A DNA stretch of 64,000 nucleotides from Halanaeroarchaeum sulfurireducens (GTDB lineage Archaea; Halobacteriota; Halobacteria; Halobacteriales; Halobacteriaceae): assembly GCF_001011115.1 (NCBI RefSeq), contig NZ_CP008874.1, positions 496,001-560,000 of the forward strand, written 5' to 3'. Below are positions 20,896 through 48,522 of the stretch, piece by piece (position 1 is the first letter of the stretch; the number at the start of each line of letters is the position of its first letter). The position numbers and the translations under genes were made by a program. Under the pieces are notes generated by a model. The model was not told where the DNA came from. It did no database searches and was given only the letters and a program-made list of their open reading frames with translations.

Positions 20896-21040
20896 GATTG
20901 TCTCGCGGGCGTTTGGTGGTTCAATCCGCTCGAGGCGGATCACATCCCGTCCCGAGGCTATCGGGAGCCCGCTGGAGCCCGCTCACCAGCGAGATATCGT
21001 ATGATCGGCGCGGTTCGACTAAAAGGACTTCGAATCGCGG

Positions 21041-23864: not shown

Positions 23865-24145
23865 GGACTGCCCCGGAGTCGGTTGCGGGACGGACCCATC
23901 GTCATGGTCAGACAGACGCTGTGGTTTCGATCTCCCCCGTTCGATCCCAGCGAGCCATCCCCGGGTCGTGGCGCCAACCCAGTCATTCTCGTCTGTAGTA
24001 TCCTGGCTTTCACCGAGTGACTCTGTGGGGACGAAGAATGTCTAACGCGTTCATCCCGGACGTTCGACCGACCGCAGTCCATTTCCGATTAACATCATTA
24101 ACGATCATTACCTTTATTTGGGTGGGGCCCATTGAGTGAGATACG

Positions 24146-24373: not shown

Positions 24374-24539
24374 CTTCCAGGCCCGTCCCTTTTGTCGTTC
24401 GTGCCAGGATGCCATGGAACGAACACGAGTGGACACCCGCCGCGTTCGGGAACCAATCGTGTTCACCTGATCAACTCAGCGTGAGCAACCGCGCGCGCTG
24501 ACAACCGGGCTAATCGACTGACTGGATTGCCCAAATGGA

Positions 24540-46459: not shown

Positions 46460-46544
46460 GCCGAGGTAGCCTAGCCTGGCCAAGGCGGTTGCTTCGAGAG
46501 CAACTGTCCGCAAGGACTCGAGAGTTCAAATCTCTCCCTCGGCG
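46460..46544 (+). tRNA. tRNA-Ser (CGA anticodon)
   Basis: An 85-nt class II tRNA: acceptor GCCGAGG/CCTCGGC with discriminator G, anticodon stem GTTGC/GCAAC with loop TTCGAGA (anticodon CGA), long variable arm (TGTCCGCAAGGACTC region) and T-arm GAGAG-TTCAAAT-CTCTC. No intron and no encoded CCA. It is followed at once by an element of the same design as that after tRNA-Tyr. Confidence 0.94.
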
Positions 46545-46660
46545 TTTTGTGACGAGCGAAGGCGAGAGAAACGCCTGAAGAGATTTGAACCCTATCAGTC
46601 GCAGCGGCCGAACGAAGTGAGGCCGACCGTCTGATTCCGGTTCAAATCTCTCCCTCAGCG
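46541..46660 (+). repeat. Post-tRNA element after tRNA-Ser: hairpins plus copy of the tRNA 3' end
   Basis: Hairpin 1 pairs GGCGTTT (46541-46547, beginning in the tRNA end) with AAACGCC (46569-46575). An inverted T-loop copy AGAGATTTGAACC (46579-46591) pairs perfectly with GGTTCAAATCTCT (46639-46651). Inside it ATCAGTCG (46594-46601) pairs with CGTCTGAT (46628-46635), one mismatch, and CGGCC/GGCCG closes loop GAACGAAGTGA. The 17 bases 46640-46656 repeat 46524-46540 of the tRNA T-arm and acceptor. From 46661 to 46776 no gene is seen. Confidence 0.75.
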
Positions 46661-46845
46661 GTTCTGGTGAACATGACGGCGAGCGGAGCGAGTCTTTCGA
46701 AAGTGAGAGCGCAGTCACAGCAACCGGATCGGGGCGTCCGACCGGCTCTCCATCACTCGTTTCCGTTCGGCGCATTGTGACGCCCCCACCAACGTCATTA
46801 ACGATCATTACCTTTATTTGGGTGGGGCCCATTGGAGGAGATACG

Positions 46846-46959
46846 ATGTTGCGCTTTGGGACACCGTTCGACGCGGCTCGCACCGAGACCCAGACCAGTG
46901 ACTCCATGCAGACGGAGCGACGATCCACGAACCCGCGCCGATTCGAGACACGCACATAG
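46846..46959 (+). CDS. Micro-ORF A, copy 2 (37 codons)
   Basis: Starts MLRFGTPFDAARTETQTSDS and ends RRFETRT, TAG stop. A GGAGGAG lies at 46834-46840. Against copy 3 the first 20 codons differ at one residue (E/D) while the last 17 differ at eight, all amino-acid-changing. Frame length is conserved in all three copies. Confidence 0.4.
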   Translation: MLRFGTPFDAARTETQTSDSMQTERRSTNPRRFETRT

Positions 46960-46988
46960 CGACAAACTCACACAATCCCCACACAACC

Positions 46989-47072
46989 ATGATCGAGCGC
47001 ACACACCACGCATCGCTCGCAAACCCAGTCTGGAGCCATCGGTGCGAGCCGGTACACCTGCCGGTACGATAA
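46989..47072 (+). CDS. Micro-ORF B, copy 2 (27 codons)
   Basis: Encodes MIERTHHASLANPVWSHRCE then PVHLPVR and TAA. Only one residue differs from copy 1 and two from copy 3, and most base changes versus copy 1 are silent. No Shine-Dalgarno sequence is visible; it could be read by re-initiation after micro-ORF A, 29 bases upstream. Confidence 0.42.
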   Translation: MIERTHHASLANPVWSHRCEPVHLPVR

Positions 47073-47163
47073 CTCCCAGACCCCCGATACTTTTCTGGAG
47101 TCCATTCAAAACGGTTCCCCCTGGAGCGGTGCCTTTCACCATGTTCCAACCGTTGTCCTGCCG

Positions 47164-47481
47164 TTACGTCCATTCGTGGGTTTCCCAGCCCTCGTAGTGC
47201 TTCAGGCGACTCCGAATTTCGAATGGTTCCCAGTCACAGTCGTAATAGAGAATGTCTGCAAGCTCGCGAAACGCGCTGTTGTCGAGAGAAATCCCTCGCT
47301 TGCCCGCGCTCTCGATGTAGGTCGCAGACCGTAGTTCCTCGACGGCGTCGCGGGCTTTCGGGTAGTCGTTCGGATCGATCGCGGTAACGGCGAGCAGCGC
47401 TTCCTCACCGATCGGCGTCCCCCAGCGGTGCTTCGCGATCATCGCCGCGAGGAGTGCACATTTCACCGACGGCTTCCGCAT
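47164..47481 (-). CDS. Unknown 105-aa protein of the divergent cassette
   Basis: The protein begins MRKPSVKCALLAAMIAKHRWG and continues through VEELRSATYIESAGKRGISLDNSAFRELADILYYDCDWEPFEIRSRLKHYEGWE. The predicted pattern of three helices and a beta hairpin could be a winged-helix fold, but no family is recognised. A TATA-like TAAAGTG (about 47508-47514 in + coordinates) lies about 27 nt before its start, so it is probably leaderless. It is divergent from the HTH gene at 47578 and flanked by repeat copies 2 and 3. Regulator, antitoxin or adaptor are all possible. Confidence 0.7.
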   Translation of the reverse strand: MRKPSVKCALLAAMIAKHRWGTPIGEEALLAVTAIDPNDYPKARDAVEELRSATYIESAGKRGISLDNSAFRELADILYYDCDWEPFEIRSRLKHYEGWETHEWT

Positions 47482-47518
47482 GTTCGCCGTATTTTCCCAC
47501 CTGCGGACTAAAGTGTTG

Positions 47519-47532
47519 TTAATCGCTATTAC
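47519..47532. promoter_or_regulatory. TTAA-N5-ATTAC motif in the shared divergent promoter
   Basis: TTAATCGCTATTAC lies between the two outward-facing TATA boxes (about 47508-47514 and ACATATATGC near 47546). The same TTAA-N5-ATTAC layout appears as TTAACGATCATTAC in all three repeat promoters (24098, 46798, 48068). A common operator for the HTH protein encoded next to it is a reasonable inference. Confidence 0.4.
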
Positions 47533-47577
47533 CGCTTATGAAAATACATATATGCTTTCGTGAACACGCACATACAT

Positions 47578-47922
47578 ATGAGCACTCCCGCGTCGGAAAC
47601 CGGCCCAGAAGACCGGGACGTCAAGGAGGCACGTTTGGAGCATCCGAGCGGCATTCTTTACCTGTTCCAACACGACGCCGTTCCGATCCTTCTCGACGGC
47701 CTCCTCGATCTCCCGCCCGGACGCGAGTTCAATAAGACCGAGTTTGCCGATCACAGCGGAGTGACCAGACAAACCGTCGCGAACTACATCGATCTCCTCC
47801 TGGCTGTGGAGATCGTCGAGAAAGTGCCGAACACGACGCCCCAACGCTACCGACTGGCGGATACCGCCGTCGTCCGCGAACTCTTCGAACTCAACTCGGC
47901 GCTGAACGCGGTGGGTGAGTAG
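47578..47922 (+). CDS. Winged-helix/HTH protein of the divergent cassette
   Basis: From the ATG at 47578 (MSTPASETGPEDRDVKEARL) the protein has 114 residues. A helix-turn-helix is clear at about 48-75 (FNKTEFADHSGVTRQTVANYIDLLLAVEIVE), followed by a wing (KVPNTTPQRYRLADT) and a C-terminal helix. An ATG six codons earlier (47560) is possible, but TATA spacing favours 47578 as leaderless. It probably regulates the divergent 105-aa gene, itself and perhaps the flanking repeat elements. Confidence 0.8.
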   Translation: MSTPASETGPEDRDVKEARLEHPSGILYLFQHDAVPILLDGLLDLPPGREFNKTEFADHSGVTRQTVANYIDLLLAVEIVEKVPNTTPQRYRLADTAVVRELFELNSALNAVGE

Positions 47923-48115
47923 CGATCGCCCGTGAGCCGACATGTCGCTCTGATCCCGGACGTGGTCTCGATGGTGTAGATCCGGTATCCGATTCCAATT
48001 CCCCTTTCGTTTCCGTTTCCAGTCTTGGCTTCCCGTCTCTTCCGATGTGATGCCCCCACCTACGTCATTAACGATCATTACCTTTATTTGGGAGGGGGCC
48101 ATTGGAGGAGATACG

Positions 48116-48229
48116 ATGTTGCGCTTTGGGACACCGTTCGACGCGGCTCGCACCGACACCCAGACCAGTGACTCCATGCCGGCCCGGCGACGATCCAGGA
48201 GCCCGCGCCGATCCGACACACGCATATAG
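48116..48229 (+). CDS. Micro-ORF A, copy 3 (37 codons)
   Basis: Starts MLRFGTPFDAARTDTQTSDS and ends in an arginine/serine-rich tail (MPARRRSRSPRRSDTRI), TAG stop. The tail is more basic than in copies 1 and 2, suggesting nucleic-acid binding if translated. GGAGGAG lies seven bases before the ATG. Confidence 0.4.
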   Translation: MLRFGTPFDAARTDTQTSDSMPARRRSRSPRRSDTRI

Positions 48230-48256
48230 CGACAAACTCACACGATCCACACAACC

Positions 48257-48340
48257 ATGATCGAGCGCACACACCACGCAACGCTTGCAAACCCAGTCTG
48301 GAGCCATCGGTGCGAGCCGGTACGCCTGCCGGTACGATAA
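48257..48340 (+). CDS. Micro-ORF B, copy 3 (27 codons)
   Basis: Encodes MIERTHHATLANPVWSHRCE then PVRLPVR and TAA; residues 9 (T for S) and 23 (R for H) differ from copy 2. The gap to micro-ORF A is 27 bases. Across the three copies most changes in this frame are at third positions. Confidence 0.42.
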   Translation: MIERTHHATLANPVWSHRCEPVRLPVR

Positions 48341-48522
48341 CTTTCAGACCCGTCCGCTCATTTTGTAATCCGACCGTACCCACGTGGTCTCCGTCCGTAC
48401 CCACGCGCCCGCACGCGGCCAGCGCCGTCGCTCGAACGACGTGCCGTATGGCTGGCGGTGAATCGGTGAGTGTCCGAGAAAATCGGGACCGGTGGTGAGG
48501 GTCCGAGAAACGCCGAACCGGG

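Follow-up and report, generated by a model that had tools for sequence, protein, structure and literature searches.

The window analysed here is a stretch of 64,000 nucleotides of the Halanaeroarchaeum sulfurireducens chromosome. It contains three copies of a unit of ~290 bp, composed of a promoter, a 37-codon ORF (micro-ORF1) and a 27-codon ORF (micro-ORF2), at positions 24091, 46777 and 48047, and a search of the whole genome located a fourth copy outside the window, at chromosome position 176459. A preliminary description of this locus had reported the three repeats, all of whose coordinates proved correct, and had placed copies 2 and 3 as direct repeats around two divergent genes, one for an HTH protein and one for a 105-aa protein, an arrangement that we confirmed (Table 1). 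Copies 1–3 can be aligned over about 286 bp with 84.6–93.4% identity, and the identities among the cores of all four copies, from the promoter box to a little beyond the stop of ORF2, are 84.6–96.5%. As described, neither ORF carries an indel in any copy; the alignment shows two small indel sites, both in the inter-ORF spacer. A T4 tract, which begins 19–23 nt past the first base of the ORF2 stop codon in all four copies, is a plausible candidate for an archaeal terminator. All four copies are solo, with neither aceA nor any other acetate-assimilation gene downstream.

Table 1. Features of the repeat units and of the enclosed cassette (window positions)
Feature	Position	Strand	Remark
ace-box copy 1 (CATTAACGATCATTACCTTTAT)	24096..24117	+	box searches, matrix scores
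micro-ORF1 copy 1, 37 aa	24146..24259	+	start 28 nt after ace-box
micro-ORF2 copy 1, 27 aa	24290..24373	+	contains VWSHR motif
T4 tract copy 1, candidate terminator	24390..24393	+	terminator function inferred
ace-box copy 2	46796..46817	+	box searches, matrix scores
micro-ORF1 copy 2, 37 aa	46846..46959	+	
micro-ORF2 copy 2, 27 aa	46989..47072	+	
T4 tract copy 2, candidate terminator	47091..47094	+	
105-aa gene of divergent cassette, outside repeat system	47164..47481	-	weak winged-helix-like predicted fold
HTH operator GTTAATCGCTATTACC in shared cassette promoter (likely)	47518..47533	+	
winged-HTH regulator gene of cassette	47578..47922	+	
ace-box copy 3	48066..48087	+	box searches, matrix scores
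micro-ORF1 copy 3, 37 aa	48116..48229	+	
micro-ORF2 copy 3, 27 aa	48257..48340	+	
T4 tract copy 3, candidate terminator	48361..48364	+	

The closest pair consists of copies 3 and 4, which are 96.5% identical and lie about 368 kb apart; thus, copies 2 and 3, around the cassette, are not mutual nearest relatives. Copies 3 and 4 have unrelated flanks and end abruptly, and by eye neither terminal inverted repeats nor a target-site duplication was seen at the ends of the four copies. Copies 2 and 4 are situated about 190–250 bp downstream of tRNA-Ser and tRNA-Pro genes (window 46460–46662; L002 1248–1378), with partial tRNA duplicates, resembling an integration site, between tRNA and copy. A nucleotide search did not find the repeat in the 25 other genomes of the family, and a search of 391 genomes with the single ORF2 sequence returned chance matches only. 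Matches to ORF1 in two genomes (G149 and G254) were rejected, as they are located inside an unrelated coding gene. The exact promoter box does not occur in viral contigs, the phage search gave no match, and the plasmid search recovered the HTH pair only.

When the element was used in a class-wide nucleotide search, the sole match that stood out was one of 42 bp in a single genome (G180), which covers the repeat promoter alone and led us to the promoter block that we call the ace-box, CATTA-N5-CATTAMCTTTAT. The ace-box is present in all four copies and is a direct repeat, CATTA-N5-CATTA, with a 10-bp period, immediately upstream of the TATA element TTTAT. Within the genome of H. sulfurireducens, a search for CATTANNNNNCATTAMCTTTAT that allowed up to 2 mismatches gave exactly five sites, namely the four copies and the leader of the isocitrate lyase gene (aceA), compared with none for the control. 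Searching 369 haloarchaeal genomes with CATTAACGATCATTAMCTTTAT (up to 3 mismatches) detected the box in 60, mostly at one site each, and the reversed motif used as control gave four matches. As its seed, this search used the motif of the element itself; this is partly offset by a matrix trained on aceA and mamA leaders of other species alone; with that matrix the repeats score 37.9 bits, against a training mean of 40.4 bits and at most 15 bits for other sites in the window. The box matrix itself gives 40.0 bits for the repeats and under 10 bits for the next site.

Outside the H. sulfurireducens genome, 29 sites were read (loci L156–L185 minus its own copy, L168). The gene behind the box is aceA at 14 of these 29 sites and the methylaspartate mutase S gene (mamA) at four, and at seven it is followed by solo short ORFs, most of them from a single small-protein family. 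The remaining four (L156, L157, L159 and L160), with two or three mismatches, have no aceA, mamA or small protein behind them, and are either chance matches or further members of the regulon. The H. sulfurireducens isocitrate lyase matches the Pfam families ICL and PEP_mutase, and in the two loci that are long enough (L171 and L172) an ORF identified by eye as malate-synthase-like directly follows aceA. Haloarchaea have two anaplerotic routes for growth on acetate, and aceA and mamA are key genes in them (PMC5592240, PMC7746861). Judging from the genes behind it, the box is probably acetate-responsive, and it would represent a conserved promoter element for haloarchaeal acetate anaplerosis, common to the glyoxylate and methylaspartate cycles.

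The aceA leaders have a constant order: box, exactly 28 nt, micro-ORF1, an overlapping micro-ORF2 (roughly 41–84 aa) and aceA, the start of which often overlaps the stop of the leader ORF2. An ATG or GTG lies exactly 28 nt after the box in 13 of 13 aceA leaders examined and in all four copies of the repeat. The same layout precedes the H. sulfurireducens aceA at 1916736, where the aceA start overlaps the stop of an ORF2 that contains SETVWSHSQ and ends SETVWSHSQLLDQPTTPELQ. The repeats thus resemble the aceA or aceA-aceB leader in the ace-box, the 28-nt spacing, the succession of micro-ORF1 and micro-ORF2, and VWSH near the end of ORF2. They differ in ending in a T-run with no aceA behind, in forming a solo unit present in four copies, in lacking the overlap between ORF1 and ORF2, and in the length of ORF2 (27 aa, versus 41–53 aa in aceA leaders), which is also without the N-terminal motif. 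In other haloarchaea the mamA promoter has the same ace-box directly before the start, and no micro-ORFs lie between in the loci read. Leaders L179–L185, all of one genome group, contain in the ORF2 position a different small protein of about 75–85 aa with two (D)DELAQ(Q/E)APLVPD(I/L)GR repeats. In open-access papers we found no description of the aceA leader ORFs, their regulator, the box or the solo units.

The leader small proteins define a YTDxENTGAPxVP...VxSHR family, for which Pfam and NCBIfam have no model. The ORF2 of the element contains VWSHR, as found at the end of these proteins, without the N-terminal YTDxENTGAPxVP motif. With an HMM built from nine family members, the element ORF2s rank 1, 3, 4 and 5 among 1,664 short ORFs, at modest E-values of 0.01–0.035; a profile search of the H. 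sulfurireducens genome listed the aceA-leader ORF2 and not the ORF2 of the four copies. Searches of Pfam, NCBIfam and PHROG assigned the micro-ORFs to no family beyond weak hits. Between copy 1 and the other copies, ORF2 has a pS of 0.20–0.25 and a pN of 0.02–0.05, and pairs within the family have a pN/pS from 0 to about 0.3, the substitution counts being small and the copies not independent. On these counts, ORF2 is under purifying selection both in the family and among the copies. The pN/pS of ORF1 is around 0.7 or higher, without clear amino-acid constraint, and element and leader ORF1s have no detectable similarity except position and size. Second solo copies, with a variant of the box and a T-run, are found in another haloarchaeal family (G360, L198; G138, L199); their small protein reads MTARQYTDGENTGAPxVPLV...YLEEMVWSHY.

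The same box, 28-nt spacing and layout, the VWSHR motif and constraint of ORF2, and the T4 tract at the end of each copy lead us to regard the repeats as stand-alone paralogues of the aceA leader. We estimate a probability of about three in four that they are units derived from or homologous to that leader, co-regulated with acetate assimilation, with ORF2 as their product; the box, the spacing, the layout, the H. sulfurireducens aceA leader and the constraint on ORF2 are direct readings of the DNA. A factor predicted to bind the ace-box would switch on aceA along with the four units during acetate assimilation, and H. sulfurireducens is an acetate-oxidising sulfur reducer (PMC4866403). Since micro-ORF1 starts 28 nt after the box, the transcript would be leaderless or nearly so. 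Most likely, it is the peptide of ORF2 that forms the conserved product; ORF1 is probably a feature of translation or of the leader. If translated, ORF2 peptides from the free-standing copies would act in trans or raise the dosage.

More tentatively, and with appreciable doubt, the aceA-leader and solo genes may together encode an acetate-regulated microprotein family that influences the glyoxylate or methylaspartate pathway in trans, and whose gene has been multiplied to four solo copies in this acetate-dependent archaeon; possible targets are isocitrate lyase itself, translation of the operon, or the regulator of the ace-box. The trans-acting leader peptide peTrpL of Sinorhizobium meliloti (PMC7298713) provides a comparison of working, not of homology, being an operon-leader peptide that may likewise act away from its operon. 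In contrast to peTrpL, the haloarchaeal leader is archaeal, has been duplicated as separate genes and has no attenuator structure, and its function is a proposal. It is unusual for an operon leader to be present in several free-standing copies, which suggests that a peptide encoded in a leader may work in trans in archaea.

Three other readings of the copies are possible, but explain less than stand-alone paralogues of the aceA leader do. The copies might be decoys that titrate the regulator of the ace-box, the ORFs being incidental. The four copies are identical over the box and TATA stretch, including copy 1, whose overall identity is about 85%, and four extra boxes would face a single target promoter. 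However, neither the T-run nor the conservation of ORF2 would be required of a decoy, and the amino-acid constraint on ORF2 and the lack of frame-breaking indels render this reading unlikely. The copies might also be relics without function, left by a mobile or duplicated segment of the aceA leader. This seems quite unlikely in view of the perfect conservation of the box, the intact ORFs, the constrained ORF2 and the T-run in every copy, and similar solo units have been kept intact in other genera; the abrupt ends and unrelated flanks of copies 3 and 4, and the position of copies 2 and 4 behind tRNA genes, which are common insertion sites, would nevertheless suit such an origin. The preliminary description had also considered a small-RNA system. 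Being short and free-standing, with a promoter and a T-run of its own, the unit would suit a structured noncoding RNA acting in trans, but its folding energy is no better than that of shuffled sequence (z –0.66), no Rfam family matches, and the substitutions in ORF2 are mostly synonymous, so that we consider this very unlikely.

The preliminary description had proposed one self-contained module, in which the repeats are regulated by the cassette's HTH protein, acting on TTAA-N5-ATTAC. That string is indeed found in every copy and in the promoter of the cassette. Its relaxed form RTTAAYNNNNRTTAMC (up to 1 mismatch) has six matches in the window versus 0.39 expected, and genome-wide it is limited to six distinct sites, of which four are in the copies, one is in the cassette and one is on the plasmid. 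Control by the HTH protein was convincing at first on account of these six sites, and fell when the box was found before aceA in genomes that lack the HTH/105-aa pair. An HTH-operator matrix from other species (operator TGTTAAtgnnngTTaACgctag) gives 24.0 bits for the cassette and 5.3 bits for the repeats, against a background of up to 8.9 bits, whereas the ace-box matrix accounts for the repeats. The operator is an inverted repeat and the box a direct repeat. The box is absent from 39 other cassette loci (382 kb). By hand count, the 60 genomes with the box and the 70 of 391 with the 105-aa gene overlap in only eight (G000, G132, G180, G243, G248, G297, G307 and G360), where about 11 would be expected if the two were independent; the overlap is thus close to chance. 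Despite the shared string and a genuine, conserved operator in the cassette, these results make HTH control of the repeats highly improbable. By the matrix scores, two different motifs happen to overlap in TTAA-N5-ATTAC, which is not one common motif. The proposal is supported as regards a small transcription unit that is dispersed in several copies and whose short ORFs are conserved. The layout of promoter and ORFs proved to be widespread without the pair, which the preliminary description had counted against its own module if the frames were also unconserved; the frame of ORF2 is, however, conserved.

The HTH/105-aa pair thus seems to be an independent cassette, to which the repeats appear unrelated, and it would have come to lie between two of them by chance or by recombination. 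The pair is widespread in haloarchaea, on chromosomes and plasmids, and at every 105-aa locus read the HTH gene is head to head with the 105-aa gene. Alignment of 49 intergenic regions revealed a palindrome, GTTAAY-N4-RTTAAC, conserved between two TATA-like elements. It is likely the operator of the HTH protein, and its conservation across haloarchaea supports autoregulation of the cassette. The HTH protein is modelled as a winged helix. It resembles regulators of the ArsR/MarR type as well as centromere-binding proteins of plasmids, none of its matches reaching E ≤ 0.001. The 105-aa protein belongs to no Pfam or NCBIfam family, and its structure has a winged-helix-like order of elements with weak matches, none of them significant in the PDB. 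PADLOC, applied to the pair alone, and PHROG, applied to the 105-aa protein, gave no family beyond weak hits. The suggestion of a toxin-antitoxin-like system found no backing, as Pfam, NCBIfam, PHROG and PADLOC (pair only) gave no sign, beyond weak hits, of homology to a known family of toxins or antitoxins. The pair is like other divergent winged-HTH cassettes in having a shared promoter with a palindromic operator, and differs from them in that its partner family has no Pfam or NCBIfam match and that it is independent of the repeats beside it.

A further palindrome, GTTAATAACCGTTAAC, is found on a plasmid contig (L116 1501–1967; C2:105114), about 35 bp upstream of another HTH-regulator-like gene that is divergent from a 234-aa ORF and is possibly a second regulator of the same operator type. 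Elsewhere in the window, an Rfam eL15-Euryarchaeota ribosomal protein leader is located at 20913–20965 on the minus strand.
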